Source: Halapricum salinum
Lineage (GTDB): Archaea; Halobacteriota; Halobacteria; Halobacteriales; Haloarculaceae
Length of the DNA stretch: 64,000 nucleotides
Direction: 5' to 3'
NCBI RefSeq assembly: GCF_004799665.1
Contig: NZ_CP031310.1
Span: 550,887-614,886 of the forward strand
The notes beneath the pieces were generated by a model, which saw nothing but the letters and a program-made list of their open reading frames with translations, was not told the origin of the DNA and made no database searches. Both the position numbers and the translations under genes were made by a program. This document shows, piece by piece, positions 2 to 32,352 of this stretch; the stretch's first letter is position 1; the number at the start of each line of letters is the position of its first letter.

Positions 2-88
2 CTCGAAAACGTCGGCATCGACGCCCACGCTGGCCCAGACGGGCGCGTGTTCGTGACCGTGGCGTTCTGTCAGACCGCGGCCTCGTAG
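2..88 (+). CDS. 3' end of an unidentified CDS (partial)
   Basis: Frame 2 is open from the window edge to a TAG at 86-88 and would give the last 28 residues of a protein ending FCQTAAS. It overlaps the last 19 bases of rpoL tail to tail. Only the C-terminus is present, so no family can be named, and the open frame is short enough to be chance. Upstream sequence outside the window would settle it. Confidence 0.35.
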
Positions 89-354
89 GCCTCGCTCAGC
101 GCGTCGGTCTTCTCGATGACGCGATCCGTGCCGTCTTCCAGCGCGTCCAGTGCGTCCGTCCCCTCCTCGGTCTTGATCGTCAGCACGGGGTCGGTCTGGC
201 CCCCGGACTGTTCGGGGTTCATGTCGTAGGTCGCGGCGGCGACGCCGTCGGTCTCCAGCAGCGCGCCTTTGAGTACGTTCATGAACGTGTGATCCTCACC
301 AGCAATCTCGATAGAGAGCGCGTTCTCGTCTTTCTCGATGACCCGCAGGTCCAT
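70..354 (-). CDS. rpoL: DNA-directed RNA polymerase subunit L (Rpo11)
   Basis: The product is 94 aa, normal for archaeal RpoL, the counterpart of eukaryotic Rpb11, which pairs with Rpo3 (subunit D) to nucleate polymerase assembly. The N-terminal strand [17 protein letters not shown] is followed by the family motif [15 protein letters not shown] (about residues 20-34). The rest is the alpha-like dimerisation fold with an acidic C-terminal helix. The ATG at 352-354 was chosen because the family begins here; the reading frame stays open further upstream only because it runs through a palindromic repeat array. The gene is transcribed away from that array, which lies between it and the NDH-2-like gene. 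Confidence 0.95.
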
Positions 355-402
355 ACCTACGGGTACGCGTGAGGCGGAATAAGTCTCACGACCTGAATTG
401 AT

Positions 403-670
403 GTCGACGGTCGGCTCGTGAGCGTTTTTATACGCGAACAGTCCAGCCGGGAGACGTAAGGTGTCGACGGCCGACACGGCCACGCGTTTATGCGTGGCCA
501 GTCCAGCCGGGAGACGTAAGGTGTCGACGGTCGGCTGCAAGTGCCGACCGCCCAACTGTCGACGGCCGACTCGTGAGCGCTCTCGTGCGCGAACAGTCCA
601 GCCGGGAGAAGCAGTGTCGACGGCCGACTCGCGAGCGTTTTTATACGCGAACAGTCCAGCCGGGAGGCGC
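403..670 (+). repeat. Tandem array of ~60-bp palindromic units, copy 1
   Basis: Five units start with GTCGACGG at 403, 463, 523, 558 and 616. Four are full length (60, 60 and 58 bp spacing) and run to a conserved CAGTCCAGCCGGGAG. The third is cut to 35 bp. Each unit folds: the outer stem is CGGCT/AGCCG-like, and the inner stem differs by unit (GCGT/ACGC; CACGC/GCGTG; GCGC/GCGC; GCGT/ACGC) yet stays paired around a T-rich loop. The short unit forms its own hairpin (GGTCGGC/GCCGACC). The array fills the gap between rpoL and the stop codon at 671 of the next gene. The same family recurs at 19751-19980. Confidence 0.85.
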
Positions 671-1831
671 CTACATATCGGGCCAGGCTCGCAGCGCCCG
701 GCGGATCGAGGAGACGTCGGCGATCCAGCGCGCGGCGATGGCCTTCTTCAAGAGTTTGGCGGGCAGGCCACCGAACGTCGAGATGGGCAGCAGCATGACG
801 TCGTGGGCGACAGCCTCCTCACCGATGGAGATGGCCGTCCCTTTGTCTTTGAATTTCCAGGGCTTCAACGGCTGGCCGCGCATCTGTCGGGCGATGTTCT
901 CACCGACGAGTTCGGCGGCCTGCCAGGCGGCCTGGGCGGTCGGCGGCGCTGGTTCGCCGTTCTGGTCGACCAGCGCGGCGTCGCCGATGGCGAACACGCG
1001 CTCGTCGTCGGTCTGGAAGGTCGTCTCCGCGCGGACGCGATTGGACCGCTCGTCCTTGTCGAGGGCGACGTGTTGCATGGCCTCGCGACCGGTGATCCCG
1101 CCGGTCCAGACGAGGACGTCGTAGGACATCTCCGCGTCGTCGCCGACGTAGATTTTCTCGGCGTCGACCTCGCCGATGAACTCGCCAGTCTCGATCTGGA
1201 CGTCCCGGGCTTCCAGACGGCTCCTGAGTGCGCCCTGCAGTTCGGGATCGCTCTCGGGAAGGATGTTGTCCAGCCCTTCGACGAGCGTGATGTCGATGGG
1301 GGCACGCGCCTTCTCGCGGTACTCCGCGACCTCGCCGGCGACCTGGATCCCCGAGAGCCCGGCCCCGCCGACGACGACTTCGGCGGGATCGGATTTCGTC
1401 GCCTCGCGGCCGGCCTCGGTGACGGCGTCGTGGATGGCCAGTGCGTCGTCGAGACTCTTGAGGGTGTGGGCGTGCTCGCGGAGACCCTCGATCCCGAAGA
1501 AGGCCGTCCGAGAGCCGATCCCGATCAGCAGGTAGTCGTAGTCGACAGTCCGATCGTCTTCGAGGACGACCGTGCGTGTGTCGGTGTCGACGTCCGTGAC
1601 GGTCCCCTGGAGGAAGCGTGTGTCCGCGGATTTGATCGCGTCGACGGGGACGGTAATCTGCTCCTGCACGCTTGGGTCTTTGATACAGCGGTGAACTTCG
1701 TGAAGGACGAGATGGTAGTCGACGTCCGAGATCCACGTAATATCGGCCTCGTCGCCCAGCTCGGCTTCCAGGCTGTTGATGGCTCCTGCACCCGCGTACC
1801 CGGAGCCGAGGACGACGACCTGCGCTGTCAT
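671..1831 (-). CDS. NDH-2-like NAD(P)/FAD-dependent oxidoreductase
   Basis: The 386-aa protein belongs to the two-dinucleotide-fold flavoprotein family of type II NADH dehydrogenases, single-subunit enzymes that pass electrons from NADH to quinone at the inner membrane face without pumping protons. Visible motifs are the FAD GxGxxG at residues 9-14 (LGSGYAGAG), a second NAD-binding GAGLSG around 156-161, and the late FAD motif FAIGDAA at 280-286. The C-terminal ~60 residues contain an amphipathic basic segment ([14 protein letters not shown]) compatible with peripheral membrane attachment. Exact electron acceptor cannot be read from sequence; sulfide:quinone reductase-like activity is less likely because no redox Cys pair is apparent. 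Its stop codon directly abuts the palindromic array at 403-670. Confidence 0.85.
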
Positions 1832-3098: not shown

Positions 3099-4133
3099 AT
3101 GGCGAAAGGACTAGACGTCGGCACCATGAACATCATTTCGGCACAGCAGGAAGGCAACGAGACCGTCTTCGTTCAGCAGCGGAACTCGTTCGTCGAGATC
3201 GAATATTCGGACATGGCCGAGCAGATGCTTAGCCGTTCGGACGTACTCCACATCCGTAAGGACGACAAGGTCTACGTCGTCGGGGACGACGCCCTGAACT
3301 TCGCGAATATTTTCAACAAGGAGACACGACGTCCGATGAAACACGGGATCCTCTCCTCGGACGAGAAGTCCGCGATCCCGATGATGAAACTCATCATCGA
3401 GCAGGTCGTCGGCTCGCCGAGCCACCCCAACGAGAAGATCTACTTCTCGACGCCGGCCGACCCGATCGACTCGGACCTCTCGACGCTGTATCACCAGAAA
3501 ACCATCGAGAGCTTCCTCGACGACATGGGCTACGACGCCGAACCCATCAACGAGGGGATGTCCGTCATCTATTCCGAACTTGCAGACAACGACTTCACCG
3601 GGCTCGGGATCAGCTTCGGTGCCGGGATGACCAACGTCTGTCTGGCCTACTACGCCGTGCCAGTCATGAAGTTCTCGGTCGCCCGTGGTGGCGACTGGGT
3701 CGACGAGCAGGCCGCCCAGGCCACGGGCACGCCCGTCGACAAGGTCACCTCGATCAAAGAGGAGGACTTCGAGCTGGACTTCACCACCGACGTCGGCGGC
3801 GTCGAGGGTGCCCTGTCGATCTACTACGAGAACCTGCTGGACTACGTCATCGAGAACATCCAGCGTGAGGTCGACGAGGAGGACGTTGAAGAAGGACTGG
3901 ACGTTCCGGTCGTCGTCACCGGCGGGACCTCCTCGCCGAAAGGCTTCACCAAGCTGTTCGAGCGACACCTCGAAGAGGCCAACATTCCGTTCTCGATCAG
4001 CGGCGTCTCCCACGCCGACGAGCCGATGTACTCCGTCGCACGCGGTGGCCTCGTGGCCGCTCGCTCGGACGAAGAGCAGCCCCAGCAAGAGGCAGACGAA
4101 GAGGAAGCCGAAGCCGTCGAAGCCGAGGACTAG
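3099..4133 (+). CDS. Salactin-type actin homologue
   Basis: The 344-aa protein is an actin/MreB/ParM superfamily ATPase. It has the phosphate-1 loop LDVGTMN (5-11), the phosphate-2 loop [11 protein letters not shown] (170-180) and the adenosine motif [12 protein letters not shown] (271-282), in the expected order and spacing, followed by an acidic disordered tail (about 324-344). The N-terminal sequence and length match the haloarchaeal family named salactin in Halobacterium salinarum, reported to form dynamically unstable filaments growing from cell poles. That is established for the relative, not shown here. It is preceded by a membrane protein gene and followed by a T-tract terminator. Identification as salactin rests on recalled similarity, and the actin fold on visible motifs. 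Confidence 0.9.
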
Positions 4134-4160: not shown

Positions 4161-4174
4161 CCAGACCGTTTTTT
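4161..4174 (+). terminator. T-tract terminator after salactin
   Basis: Six consecutive T (4169-4174) follow a C/A-rich stretch about 35 nt after the salactin stop codon, the usual form of a haloarchaeal terminator. It lies between convergent genes. Confidence 0.5.
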
Positions 4175-4227
4175 CCGTGCGCCACGCTCAGCAGTGACGC
4201 GTCTGTATGGAGTAACGATCGCAGAGA

Positions 4228-9166: not shown

Positions 9167-9967
9167 ATGGGTATCAAGTGTTCGCTCTTCGGGCACGCGT
9201 TCGGCGAGACGGAAGTCGAGCGCGAGCGTGAAGAACAGGGGAGCGAGGTGGTCAGCACGATCCGTGAACTCCAGACGTGTACCCGCTGTGGCGAGCGACG
9301 CGTCGTCTCGGAGAACAAGGAAGTGACCACGCTCGAGACACCGGACGACGTCGACGCCGACGACGAATCCGCCGAGCCAGCCGACCACGCCAGCGCGGCG
9401 CCGACGATCGCCGAGGCCGAGGCCACCGCGGAGGCAGACGCCGAGGCAGTCGAAACAGCGGAGCCACCAGCTGCGGAGTCGGCAACCGAGAAAGTCGACG
9501 ATCCGGCGACAGACGACGAACTGGTCGAGGAGGAGCCGCCGGTGACCGACGACGCCGAGATTCTGGACGACGAAGACGAGGAAGACGAGCCGGAGCGCGA
9601 ACCCGGCCAGTGGCCCCAGGAGGCCGACGAGGGTGGCGAACCGACCGACGAGGATTTCAACCAGTTCGGGTACGACGACACCGAGGAGACGGTCGACGAG
9701 GAGAAGACCGACGCGGAGTTCATCGACAGCGAGGACGAAGCGGAAGAGTCGACGCCACAGCCCCAGACCAACGAGTGGCCCTCCGAGGAGGAGATCGACG
9801 CCGCGGGCGAGCCTGATTCTGCGGGTCCCGGCGCGGTCACGGTCCCCGAAGGGTCGTTCGTCTGTGAGGGGTGTGGGTTCTCGACGCCGGTCGAGTCATC
9901 GTCGCTGCGAGAGGGGGATTTCTGTCCCGAGTGTCACAAGGAGACGTTGGTGCAAGTTCGAGAGTAG
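9167..9967 (+). CDS. Two-ended zinc-ribbon protein with acidic linker
   Basis: The 266-aa protein begins MGIKCSLFGHAFGET with a CTRCGERR pair at about 38-43. It then has some 170 residues of Glu/Asp/Ala-rich low-complexity sequence with several NQFGYDD- or NEWPSEEE-like blocks, and ends with a second ribbon, FVCEGCGFSTPVE...GDFCPECHKETLV (about 232-262). The first ribbon with its C(x)nH start is typical of a haloarchaeal family (DUF7093 as I recall). The layout suggests two zinc modules tethered by a disordered linker. Function is unknown. The palindromic repeat region begins at its stop codon. Confidence 0.8.
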   Translation: MGIKCSLFGHAFGETEVEREREEQGSEVVSTIRELQTCTRCGERRVVSENKEVTTLETPDDVDADDESAEPADHASAAPTIAEAEATAEADAEAVETAEPPAAESATEKVDDPATDDELVEEEPPVTDDAEILDDEDEEDEPEREPGQWPQEADEGGEPTDEDFNQFGYDDTEETVDEEKTDAEFIDSEDEAEESTPQPQTNEWPSEEEIDAAGEPDSAGPGAVTVPEGSFVCEGCGFSTPVESSSLREGDFCPECHKETLVQVRE

Positions 9968-10123
9968 CGAGACTCCGAGCAGAGCGAGGAGTCTCGAAAA
10001 TCGAGCGAAGAACGCAGTGACTCGCGAGTAGCGAGGACGACCGCAGGGAGTCCTCGAAGAAGCGAGCGGGGAGGAACGACCCGCGAGACGCCGAGCAGAG
10101 CGAGGAGTCTCGAAAATCGAGCG
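9968..10123. repeat. Three palindromic repeats with exact 33-nt duplication
   Basis: A 33-nt sequence beginning CCGAGCAGAGCGAGGAGTCT is present twice without mismatch (9975-10007 and 10091-10123), with a diverged copy between (about 10030-10070). Each copy is part of a hairpin: CGAGACTCC/GGAGTCTCG in the first, GAGGAC/GTCCTC in the middle, CGAGACGCC/GGAGTCTCG in the last. Spacing between equivalent points is about 58 bp. The block starts at the stop codon of the preceding gene and ends about 90 bp before the next one. Confidence 0.85.
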
Positions 10124-18160: not shown

Positions 18161-19747
18161 ATGGAACAGCACGAACCGCTCGCACGGCTGACACTGGATA
18201 CGCTCCCGATGAATATCGCCGTCCTCGACGGTGACGGGACGATTCTCTTTACCAACCGGTCCTGGGACGAGTTCGGCGAAGAGAGCGCCGATGCGACGGG
18301 ATCGAACTACTTCGCTGGAATCGACATGGCCGGCGACGAGACGGCGTCGAAAGCAGTCGATGGGATTCGCTCCGTGATGGACGGCGAGCAATCGCTGTTC
18401 AGTCTCGAATACCCCTGTGACACGGCCGACGGCTCGAAGTGGTTCTTGATGCGAGTCGTCCCGCTCAGTGAAGATGGCGAGGAAGTGGTCGTCGCGCACA
18501 CCGATATCACCGAGCGGAAACTGGCGGAGTTACGCGCTCAAGAGCGTGCCAGAGAGCTGCAGGCCGAGCGCCAGCGGCTGGAACATCTCATCAGTCGCGT
18601 CAACGGGCTCGTCAGAGACGTCATGGCCGCGCTGATGGGTGCTGAAACGAGCGACGACGTTCGGACAGCGGTCTGTGAACAGTTCGTGGCCGCCGAGCCA
18701 TACGTCCAGGCGTGGATAGCCGACGTCGACCTGCGGACCGGTGGGCTGGTCGGCGTCGCAGGCGCTCCCGACGCACCGACCGACGTCGAGATCGGCCAGC
18801 AGACGCCGGACGATCCAGTCGCCAGAGCCACCGAAACGACGGAGTTGCAGGTCGTGTCTGCGATGGAAGAGGTGCCCGAATCGAGTGTCCATCAAAAACT
18901 CTGCCCCGACGCGAAGGCGATGGCGGCACTTCCGCTGGTCGCCGACGACTCGCTGTACGGTATTCTGGTCGTCTACGCCGACGAATCCGACGCCTTCGAC
19001 GAGCGCGAGCGGGTGATCCTCGAAGCGCTCGGGCGGACAGTCGCCACCGCGATCAACGCCATCGAGCGCAAGCGCCTGTTGACTGCAGATACTGTCGTCG
19101 AGGTCGAACTGGAGATCGCCGATCGAGGGGCGTTCGTCTTCGATCTCAGCAGAGATCTGGACTGTGAACTCACCTACGGCGGGGCCGTCCCGCAGGACGA
19201 GGACACCTACCTGCTGTTTTTCACAGCGAGCGGGTGTGCTACCCAGGCGTTGCTGGAGCAGGCGAGCGAGTATCCGGAGATCAGTGCGGCCGCACACGTC
19301 TCGGATTTCGAGTCGGGATCGTTCTTCGAGTTCGAGGTGGCCGATCCACCGATCGTCTCGACGCTGGCGTCTCACGGCGGTCGGACCAGATCGATCACCG
19401 TCTCGAAGGGGGTCGCTCGCGTCGAGGCCGAGCTCGCCGGCGACGCCAACGTACGGGCACTGGTCGACGCCCTCTCGGAGACGTTCGAGTCGGTCGAACT
19501 GGTCGCCTACCGCGAGCGCGAGCGGCCCACCCAGACCCGCGAGGAGTTCGTCAGCCAGTTGATGGCCGAGTTGACCGATCGCCAACGGACCGCCCTCCAG
19601 AAAGCATTCGTCGGCGGGTTTTTCGAGTGGCCACGAGCGACTTCGGGCGAGGAACTGGCGGCGTCGATGGACATCTCCCCGTCGACCTACCATCAGCACC
19701 TCCGTGCCGCCCAGCGTAAGCTTGTTACCCAGATTTTCGATGGCTGA
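18161..19747 (+). CDS. PAS-GAF-BAT-HTH regulator (bacterioopsin-activator type)
   Basis: The 528-aa protein has an N-terminal PAS domain (about 10-125, ending VVVAHTDITERKLAE), a coiled-coil, a GAF domain (about 150-305), a BAT/GAF-like domain (about 315-465, ERKRLLTADTVVEVELEIAD) and a C-terminal HTH_10 helix-turn-helix (about 470-525: LTDRQRTALQKAFVGGFFEWPR ... MDISPSTYHQHLRAAQRKL). This is the haloarchaeal bacterioopsin-activator family, thought to tune transcription to light, oxygen or redox. Target genes cannot be read, but phytoene synthase lies next downstream. The ATG at 18161 follows GGAGG very closely (2 nt); a GTG at 18140 is an alternative. A palindromic array begins 3 nt after the stop. 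Confidence 0.9.
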   Translation: MEQHEPLARLTLDTLPMNIAVLDGDGTILFTNRSWDEFGEESADATGSNYFAGIDMAGDETASKAVDGIRSVMDGEQSLFSLEYPCDTADGSKWFLMRVVPLSEDGEEVVVAHTDITERKLAELRAQERARELQAERQRLEHLISRVNGLVRDVMAALMGAETSDDVRTAVCEQFVAAEPYVQAWIADVDLRTGGLVGVAGAPDAPTDVEIGQQTPDDPVARATETTELQVVSAMEEVPESSVHQKLCPDAKAMAALPLVADDSLYGILVVYADESDAFDERERVILEALGRTVATAINAIERKRLLTADTVVEVELEIADRGAFVFDLSRDLDCELTYGGAVPQDEDTYLLFFTASGCATQALLEQASEYPEISAAAHVSDFESGSFFEFEVADPPIVSTLASHGGRTRSITVSKGVARVEAELAGDANVRALVDALSETFESVELVAYRERERPTQTREEFVSQLMAELTDRQRTALQKAFVGGFFEWPRATSGEELAASMDISPSTYHQHLRAAQRKLVTQIFDG

Positions 19748-19750
19748 GCT

Positions 19751-19980
19751 GTCGACGGCCGGCTCGCGAACACTCTTGTGTGTGAGTAGTCCGGCCGGGA
19801 GACGTGAGATGTCGACGGCCGGCTCGCGAGCAGTCTCGTCTGCGAGCAGTCCAGCCGGGAGAAGCAGTGTCGACGGCCGGCTCGCGAACACTCTTGTGTG
19901 TGAGTAGTCCGGCCGGGAGACGTGAGCTGTCGACGGCCGGCTCGCGAGCGCGTTTGTGCGCAGCCAGTCCAACCGGAAAA
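19751..19980 (+). repeat. Tandem array of ~60-bp palindromic units, copy 2
   Basis: Four units begin GTCGACGGCCGGCTCGCGA at 19751, 19811, 19869 and 19929 (spacing 60, 58, 60) and end CAGTCCAGCCGGGAG or a close variant. Inner stems differ between units but pair each time: ACAC/GTGT, GCAG/CTGC, ACAC/GTGT, GCGC/GCGC, each around a TCTT-, TCTCGT- or TTT-like loop. Units 1 and 3 are nearly identical over their length. It starts right after the stop of the HTH_10 regulator, in the same orientation. The rest of the 401-bp gap before crtB (19981-20148) holds no recognised gene. Confidence 0.85.
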
Positions 19981-20148: not shown

Positions 20149-21099
20149 ATGTTAGACGAAACCATCACCACGAGCAAAGAGATCCACAAGCGGACAGGAA
20201 AGACCTTCTACTACGCGACGCGGCTGTTGCCGGAACGGATCCGCCGGGCGACGTACGTCCTCTACGGCTTCTTCCGGGTCGCCGACGAGGTGGTCGACCA
20301 GGCCGACGCGCTGCCGGCCGAGGAGCAGCACGAGCGACTGGAGGACTTTCGGGCGAAAGCGCTGGGCGACCGCGAGGCCGACGACGACGTCCTCACGGCG
20401 TTTCAGTCCCTGCGTGCACAGTCGGACATCGCCGACGACGACGTGAACACGTTCATCGACGCGATGCAACAGGACATCGAGAAAGACCGCTACCGGACCT
20501 ACGAGGAACTGGAGGGGTACATGCGCGGGTCGGCCGTCGCAGTCGGGAACATGATGCTCGACGTCATGGACCCCGAGCAGAAAGACCACGCCAGGCCCCA
20601 CGCCGCCGCGCTCGCGGAAGCGTTCCAGCTGTCGAACTTCCTGCGGGACGTCGGCGAGGACATCACCGAGTACGACCGGATCTACCTCCCACAGGAGACG
20701 CTCGAACAGTTCGGCGCGAGCGAAGACGACATCGTCGAGAAGCGAGCGACCGAGGGGTTCAAGGCTGCCATGCGCGCCGAGATGGCCCGGACCGAACGAC
20801 TCTACCGCGACGGCGTCGCTGGGATCAGATATCTCCCCGACGACTGCCAGTTCGCGGTCCTGTGTTCGGCCGTCCTCTACGCCGAACATCACCGCCAGAT
20901 CAGAGCCATCGACTACGATACGCTGAGCCGAGACGCAAATCTCGGGCGGACGCGCAAACTCTACCTCATCGCCCGGACCTGGTGGCACTGGCGCCAGCAC
21001 CGCGATCCCGAAGCGACGTTCTACGCCGTCAGTGCCGTCCCCGAGGACGCCCCCGCAACCGAGCACCATCACGAGACCGTCACCGACAACGTTGCCTAG
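20149..21099 (+). CDS. crtB: Phytoene synthase
   Basis: The 316-aa protein is a trans-isoprenyl diphosphate synthase head-to-head type (squalene/phytoene synthase). It condenses two geranylgeranyl diphosphates to phytoene, the first step toward bacterioruberin and retinal. Both Asp-rich substrate motifs are present: DEVVDQAD (about 45-52) and DVGEDITEYDRIYLP (about 166-180), with the core AEAFQLSNFLRDVGED. In haloarchaea the next genes are often other crt genes, but here an r-protein gene follows on the other strand. The ATG at 20149 begins the conserved MLDETITTSKEIH. Confidence 0.93.
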   Translation: MLDETITTSKEIHKRTGKTFYYATRLLPERIRRATYVLYGFFRVADEVVDQADALPAEEQHERLEDFRAKALGDREADDDVLTAFQSLRAQSDIADDDVNTFIDAMQQDIEKDRYRTYEELEGYMRGSAVAVGNMMLDVMDPEQKDHARPHAAALAEAFQLSNFLRDVGEDITEYDRIYLPQETLEQFGASEDDIVEKRATEGFKAAMRAEMARTERLYRDGVAGIRYLPDDCQFAVLCSAVLYAEHHRQIRAIDYDTLSRDANLGRTRKLYLIARTWWHWRQHRDPEATFYAVSAVPEDAPATEHHHETVTDNVA

Positions 21100-31995: not shown

Positions 31996-32352
31996 ATGTC
32001 TGATCTCAACGTCGACGTCGAAGTAGAAGTCGAAGTGGACGAGGACGAACTCGAAGTCGAACTGAACAATCCGACGACCGCCGAGGCCGAACTGCAAGCC
32101 CCCGGACTGGAGATCGAAGTCGAAGTCGAAGCCGAGATCGAGGGGACGCCGGAACTCGAAGACGAGGACGAAGCGCCTGAGGCCGACGAGGAAGAAGAAA
32201 CCGCGCCTGAGGCCGACGAGGAAGAAGAAACCGCGCCTGAGGCCGACGAGGAAGAAGAAGCCGAGGAAGAAACCGACGAAGAGACTGAAGCCGACGAGGA
32301 AGAGGAAGCCGACGAAGACGACACAGCCGGAGCCGAAGACGACGAAGCGTAG
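31996..32352 (+). CDS. Hyperacidic low-complexity protein with 30-nt tandem repeats
   Basis: The 118-aa protein is about half Glu plus Asp. The N-terminal third alternates valine and glutamate (DVEVEVEVDEDELEVEL) in a beta-strand-like pattern; the middle carries the decapeptide APEADEEEET three times, encoded by nearly perfect 30-nt tandem repeats (about 32173-32262); the end is Glu/Asp/Ala-rich. No fold is recognised. A GTG start at 31981 is possible, but ATG at 31996 is preferred. Repeat number probably varies between strains. Confidence 0.7.
   Translation: MSDLNVDVEVEVEVDEDELEVELNNPTTAEAELQAPGLEIEVEVEAEIEGTPELEDEDEAPEADEEEETAPEADEEEETAPEADEEEEAEEETDEETEADEEEEADEDDTAGAEDDEA

Follow-up and report, generated by a model that had tools for sequence, protein, structure and literature searches.

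A strand-specific hairpin repeat in extragenic arrays of the haloarchaeal genus Halapricum

REP-like repeats are well known in bacteria. In the passages of PMC3733652 that describe them, REP and BIME sequences (RAYT; GTAG and CGTC families) are short extragenic palindromes, mostly located downstream of genes, present in many copies and limited to close relatives; the families reported there are bacterial, and their dimers are mostly HH or TT. The closest archaeal kind is that of the PATEs and small mobile repeats (SMRs) of Haloquadratum walsbyi, short repeats without a transposase, of which the mobilisation of SMRs has been called enigmatic (PMC3119063). Prokaryotic satellites, such as those of Methanocella conradii and Leptospira interrogans, are non-coding tandem repeats of more than 30 nt occurring at several sites, according to the relevant passages of PMC6749651. 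The terminators of Haloferax volcanii are hairpins at RNA 3' ends, one of which terminates in vivo (PMC7237163), and do not form a repeat family.

The repeat family that we identified in Halapricum resembles REP/BIME sequences, as an earlier note on this locus had proposed, in consisting of dispersed extragenic palindromes, mostly behind genes, in many copies, limited to close relatives and probably transcribed as hairpins (compared with the same passages of PMC3733652). The likeness fails in two respects: all Halapricum arrays are head to tail, and the genome richest in copies has no Y1 transposase. The unit also differs from REP in its size (60 nt with a 42-nt hairpin) and in its fixed distance of 2-3 nt from stop codons. 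As to the GTAG/CGTC foot tag, no constant GTAG is present; CGTCTCCCGG appears on the reverse strand of units of the GAGACG spacer class only. Because inverted dimers and RAYT were both tested for and neither was found, the repeat is not filed as REP. With PATEs and SMRs, which make no target duplication, it shares the nature of a short haloarchaeal repeat containing palindromes or inverted repeats; no clear target duplication was seen for the Halapricum unit. However, PATEs have palindromes near both ends and derive from IS605-type ends, and SMRs have terminal inverted repeats, whereas the Halapricum unit contains one internal hairpin and occurs in tandem arrays (PMC3119063). Like satellites, the family consists of non-coding tandem repeats spread over several sites, but the passages of PMC6749651 on satellites report neither strand-specific hairpin covariation nor stop-codon spacing.

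Repeat units and their fold

The window analysed here is a stretch of 64,000 nt, positions 550887-614886 of the single-contig 3.45 Mb genome of Halapricum salinum (G000). The four tandem units described in the earlier note are present at 19750-19980 (Table 1), and the joint changes of the inner arms in units 1 to 4 are exactly as claimed. The distance of 3 nt given for the array from the preceding stop codon is correct for the first GTCGAC at 19751, and becomes 2 nt if counted from the constant T. This array proved to be merely one of 21 in the genome. Another one lies within the window at 402-674, and the motif of the 3' half of the unit occurs 7 times in the window, where 0.08 matches would be expected by chance. 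The nine units previously counted in the window correspond to eight full units plus a short hairpin of 35 nt in the second array. A similar 35-nt hairpin lies on both sides of the array of a congener, G004 (L122, ~4020-4054 and 4170-4204), and this short hairpin is possibly a second, related element.

Table 1. Coordinates of the two arrays of the window and of their neighbouring genes
Feature	Position	Strand	Remarks
RNA polymerase subunit L-type gene	70..354	-	Pfam RNA_pol_L_2; upstream of the gene, array 2 begins 47 nt from the start codon
Array 2, unit 1, type A	402..461	+	79.9 bits
Array 2, unit 2, type B	462..521	+	Fully paired 8-bp stem GGCCACGC/GCGTGGCC; covariance model and fold
Array 2, short 35-nt hairpin unit	522..556	+	Shared 5' end, TGTCGACGGTCGGCTG
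Array 2, unit 3, type A	557..614	+	Covariance model
Array 2, unit 4, type A	615..668	+	Followed after about 5 nt by the TAG stop of the oxidoreductase gene on the minus strand (671-1831)
Pyr_redox_2 oxidoreductase gene	671..1831	-	Stop codon adjacent to array 2, at its 3' end; Pfam and gene caller
PAS-GAF-BAT-HTH_10 regulator gene	18161..19747	+	Pfam PAS_4, GAF, BAT, HTH_10; start codon from codon-usage caller
TGA stop of the HTH_10 gene	19745-19747	+	Abuts array 19750-19980
Array 19750-19980, unit 1, type A (tandem G.A stem)	19750..19809	+	Inner arms ACAC/GTGT; 77.5 bits
Array 19750-19980, unit 2, type A	19810..19867	+	Inner arms GCAG/CTGC; 58-nt form, spacer GAAGCAG; 79.5 bits
Array 19750-19980, unit 3, type A	19868..19927	+	Nearly identical to unit 1; inner arms ACAC/GTGT; 78.2 bits
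Array 19750-19980, unit 4, chimera (5' half type A, 3' half type B)	19928..19980	+	Inner arms GCGC/GCGC; decayed 3' end; 63.6 bits
Squalene/phytoene synthase gene, downstream of array 19750-19980	20149..21099	+	Pfam SQS_PSY

Other repeated sequences were also seen in the window. At 9968-10120, a different hairpin, CGAGACTCC GAGCAGAGCGA GGAGTCTCG, begins directly behind a TAG stop (9965-9967) and recurs near 10086-10115; it is the strongest post-stop fold of the window (z -4.4). An acidic coding tandem repeat with a 30-nt period occupies 32173-32348.

The fold was examined on 86 matches from G000 and its relatives, of which 77, comprising 65 distinct hairpin sequences, were kept after removal of decayed ones. 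Each unit contains one conserved 42-nt hairpin on the + strand, composed of CGGC/GCCG (positions 7-10 with 45-48), GRC/GYC (12-14 with 40-42), an 8-step stem (17-24 with 31-38) and a loop of 6 nt. These CGGC/GCCG and GRC/GYC helices took the place of an outer helix CCGGCT/AGCCGG for two reasons: in every case the A at position 13 is opposite T, and the bulged C of the new structure is a base, one C of GGCCGG, that is deleted in some units. Over the 13 pairs and 65 distinct units, 743 cells are Watson-Crick, 83 are G.T, 15 are A.C and 4 are other. In an alignment of 18 units, both-side changes affect 25 cells, compared with 6.3 after shuffling; the paired fraction of this alignment drops from 82% to 20-35% once one side is slid. 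With 80 distinct units, the both-side changes amount to 88 against 25.9 in shuffles, with 96% paired against 20-44% when slid; kinship of the units inflates such covariation counts, but the slid control retains that kinship. The earlier statement that the covariation is hard to explain by chance is thus confirmed by both kinds of control. We regard it as strongly supported by these alignments that the arm changes are compensatory and that there is selection for a folded + strand.

The folded strand can be specified because, read on the + strand, G.T pairs (83) exceed A.C pairs (15). The proposal of a folded RNA or a cruciform DNA therefore holds in its first part, RNA or single-stranded DNA of the + strand being a good fit, while the one-strand bias led us to reject cruciform DNA as the main form. 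Positions 19-20 and 35-36 form a tandem G.A motif (GA/GA) in 60 of the 77 units (type A). In type B, this motif is replaced as a block by two Watson-Crick pairs, CT/AG (11 units) or CC/GG (5 units); the two positions go together in 76 of the 77 units, the remaining one being mixed. Type B is confined to G000, where there is usually one per multi-unit array (12/17 arrays, P ~0.02). A kink-turn was considered and rejected, there being no 3-nt bulge beside the G.A pairs. Single units reach the consensus fold by energy alone; the folding energy of entire arrays (z -1.7 on the + strand, -2.4 on the - strand) gives weak evidence. The outer sequence of the unit is near-constant, which together with the conserved strand-specific fold suggests a binding partner, and plain neutrality is therefore unlikely.

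Position and polarity of the arrays

Genes were called in 8-kb regions around the arrays with a simple codon-usage caller. All 21 arrays of G000 are outside predicted genes. Fifteen of them come after the stop codon of a gene on their own strand, with a gap of 2 nt in 10 arrays, 3 nt in 3 arrays, and 9 and 14 nt in the remaining two, and the other six begin 32-92 nt upstream of a divergent gene. The chance of at least 13 arrays at 2-3 nt is ~1e-13, or 4e-10 with 40 nt reserved for the next promoter, in a calculation that assumes uniform insertion and uses estimated free intervals, two of them set by hand. Many 60-nt units have a TGA in their spacer in the same register as the stop codon of the gene. 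Array sites not at 2-3 nt are without TGA in that register. One frame is open in the 60-nt units, as would be expected of coding repeats; however, unit lengths of 57-63 nt break the frame and many units have an in-frame TAG. With no array inside a predicted gene, we give practically no credence to coding repeats or an alignment artefact.

The neighbouring genes are functionally unrelated (chemoreceptor, BAT/HTH_10 regulator, ThiC-like, MsrB with a SelR domain, NUDIX, MatE, ThyX, PAP2, DUF1508 and others). A family B DNA polymerase gene in L113 (4359-8288, + strand) probably contains an intein, because it has Hint and LAGLIDADG domains.

These positions raise the alternative of a functional 3' UTR element, in which chains of hairpins would be retained for their use as mRNA stabilisers, as terminators or as insulators between convergent genes. 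The 15 arrays at 2-14 nt behind a same-strand stop codon agree with this, as does the identity of the folding + strand with the strand of the upstream gene. One hairpin of Haloferax volcanii terminates 59% of transcripts (PMC7237163), which shows that hairpins can act as terminators there and makes a 3' UTR effect plausible for these 15 arrays. The stabilising 3' UTR suggested in the earlier note thus keeps a possible role there, but it does not extend to the six arrays that precede a divergent gene and have no same-strand gene before them. Moreover, the neighbouring genes have no common function, and orthologues in sister species manage without an array. A T stretch is the main termination motif in H. 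volcanii (PMC7237163); by inspection, the Halapricum hairpins have no U-tract of the intrinsic terminator type and are followed by GGGAGAC. Genes of the window are also generally without an excess of post-stop structure (mean z -0.36, n=40). Retention for such a function appears unlikely to us as the explanation of the arrays.

The arrays are polar. By inspection, the 5' end is clean, always with a complete first unit, and more than half of the arrays finish with a truncated or decayed unit. The 4 nt preceding the first unit resemble the spacer ends of their own array (mean identity 0.65) more than those of other arrays (0.40), a likeness reached in 0 of 20000 permutations (P <5e-5). Flank-like spacers are compatible with two modes, duplications that take in the 5' flank as the array grows, and insertions that are guided by short homology. 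No clear case of target duplication was found at the 3' ends of the arrays. The surprising features are the exact stop-codon spacing, the flank-like spacers and a one-strand fold without transposase.

Distribution in Halapricum and comparison with sister species

A covariance model built from 18 units was used to search G000 and its relatives. In G000 it gives 65 matches, of which ~62 are real units; they form 21 arrays, some on either strand, with 1 to 5 units in each. Among the weakest matches examined, two fall inside predicted genes. A lone decayed 3' half of a unit was noticed in an intergenic position (L058 ~1500; G000:C1:1148125). Four of the five congeners have the family: G001 (5 units), G002 (16), G003 (2) and G004 (2), with none in G005, and it is down to one site in G001, G003 and G004 (G004 being 78% complete). 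The family was not found outside the genus among 391 genomes of the class, in a scan that scored the best candidates per genome only. The covariance model found no unit in the genomes of the family and order, its weak matches in G007 and G040 being inside genes. An exact pattern search of 84,980 species genomes, from which near relatives were perhaps left out, returned a single match, in Nonomuraea, which is not unit-like. Viral carriage was rejected, there being no exact pattern match in IMG/VR. Rfam gave no match at the gathering threshold for the window, nor at E up to 1 for the array. Consistent with the earlier remark that no haloarchaeal family of this kind had been described, none was found in Rfam or in the literature searched. 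The repeat is a real, well-supported archaeal hairpin repeat, undescribed as far as searched.

The arrays are unevenly placed on the chromosome (scan P ~0.003), with 17 of 20 in 42% of its length, from 2.6 Mb across position 0 to 0.6 Mb. BIMEs bind gyrase or IHF, and such clustering is what speaks for BIME-like arrays of protein-binding DNA sites involved in chromosome structure. But double-stranded binding predicts neither the compensatory changes, nor the bias of G.T over A.C, nor the swap of G.A for Watson-Crick pairs, and a role in chromosome structure agrees poorly with the lack of the family in G005 and the single site in three congeners. We consider this explanation very improbable.

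For ten arrays, the orthologous gene ends were fetched from relatives. Array-free orthologues exhibit the same gene end and the same C-terminus, with no array after it. Clean empty sites were obtained for the MsrB gene (L105 compared with G003 and G005), the ThiC-like gene (L104 with G005) and the HTH_10 gene of the window (L101 with G004). Since the gene ends are unchanged without an array, the arrays are additions behind existing stop codons. An element that itself supplies the stop codon was rejected, the C-termini being equal to those of array-less relatives. A class-III aminotransferase gene, which we take as hemL, is preceded on its upstream side by an array in G000-G004, and the array at this locus is probably ancestral. 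The copy number of units differs between species.

Arrays L117, L118, L119, L120 and L121 (G001-G003) are found at rearrangement breakpoints between sister species. For instance, at the G001 array L117, sequence matching the left flank of the G002 array L119 (94% over 4.3 kb) meets sequence matching the right flank of another, L120 (93% over 3 kb), and the right flank of a third G002 array is that of the G003 locus (88%, 2.5 kb). As array flanks have been re-joined between G001 and G002, arrays are points of chromosomal exchange.

Mobilisation and origin

No Y1 transposase (PF01797) was found in G000, whereas the search was positive in control genomes and found 12 in relatives; none of these 12 loci has unit-like ends or a unit nearby. 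Neither reverse transcriptase nor IS110-type transposase was found in G000. A search for IS91-type Y2 was silent in the control genomes as well. Among TnpB loci of three genomes, the 30 examined out of 51 (10 of 11 in G000) are without unit-like ends. RAYT, IS605, IS110 and reverse transcriptase were rejected as mobilisers, their genes being missing from G000 or without unit-like ends at the loci examined. Features of a MITE are likewise absent: TGTCGA and GGGAGACSTGANN, with which the unit begins and ends, do not form an inverted repeat, and duplication of a target was not seen.

These searches bear on the possibility that the repeat is a core-deleted IS605-type element (PATE), with subterminal palindromes moved as single-stranded DNA by TnpA in trans, at a target such as TGANN. 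In its favour are the strand-specific hairpin, the single orientation, the clean 5' end behind what may be a short target, and the lack of a clear target duplication. PATEs are as short as 52 bp in Haloquadratum, where insertions occur despite nearly all IS200-type transposases being pseudogenes (PMC3119063). However, known PATEs are not tandem hairpin arrays, no credible IS605-type end matching the unit was found at the 12 Y1 and 30 TnpB loci, and G005, the genome with the most Y1 genes (5), is without the unit. A PATE origin is accordingly quite improbable in our judgement.

We moderately favour the interpretation of the arrays as a genus-specific, lineage-expanded, transposase-less extragenic hairpin repeat, putatively transcribed as 3' UTR hairpins behind genes. 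A unit or short array would be inserted by some activity, perhaps via short homology between the TGANN preceding many units and the TGA at gene ends. The insert would survive only where neither a coding sequence nor a promoter is broken, and the array might thereafter expand or contract by slippage or unequal exchange. Behind genes, the result would be a chain of transcribed 3' UTR hairpins, which might slow 3' exonucleases or aid termination, such an effect of the post-stop arrays being likely a by-product. Several observations speak against this interpretation. A mobile parent element was not found among Y1, reverse transcriptase and IS110 in G000 or at the sampled Y1/TnpB ends, no target duplication is clearly visible, and slippage alone accounts neither for 20 new sites nor for the exact 2-nt spacing; the signs of a binding partner mentioned above also count against a plainly neutral repeat. 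A more specific alternative, possible but doubtful, is a mobile hairpin addressed to stop codons, which would insert exactly behind stops without Y1, IS110-type transposase or reverse transcriptase, and would grow by copying its 5' flank into each spacer, leaving a clean 5' end and a ragged 3' end.

To address how such repeats spread, a clean system would be offered by an archaeal REP-like family of this kind, whose strand-specific fold is unusually well supported, which keeps a fixed distance from stop codons and which has no transposase. It would also be a case of a repeat that shapes 3' UTRs and chromosome breakpoints in haloarchaea. Both questions, that of spread and that of shaping, are directly testable with the empty and filled sites of sister species.
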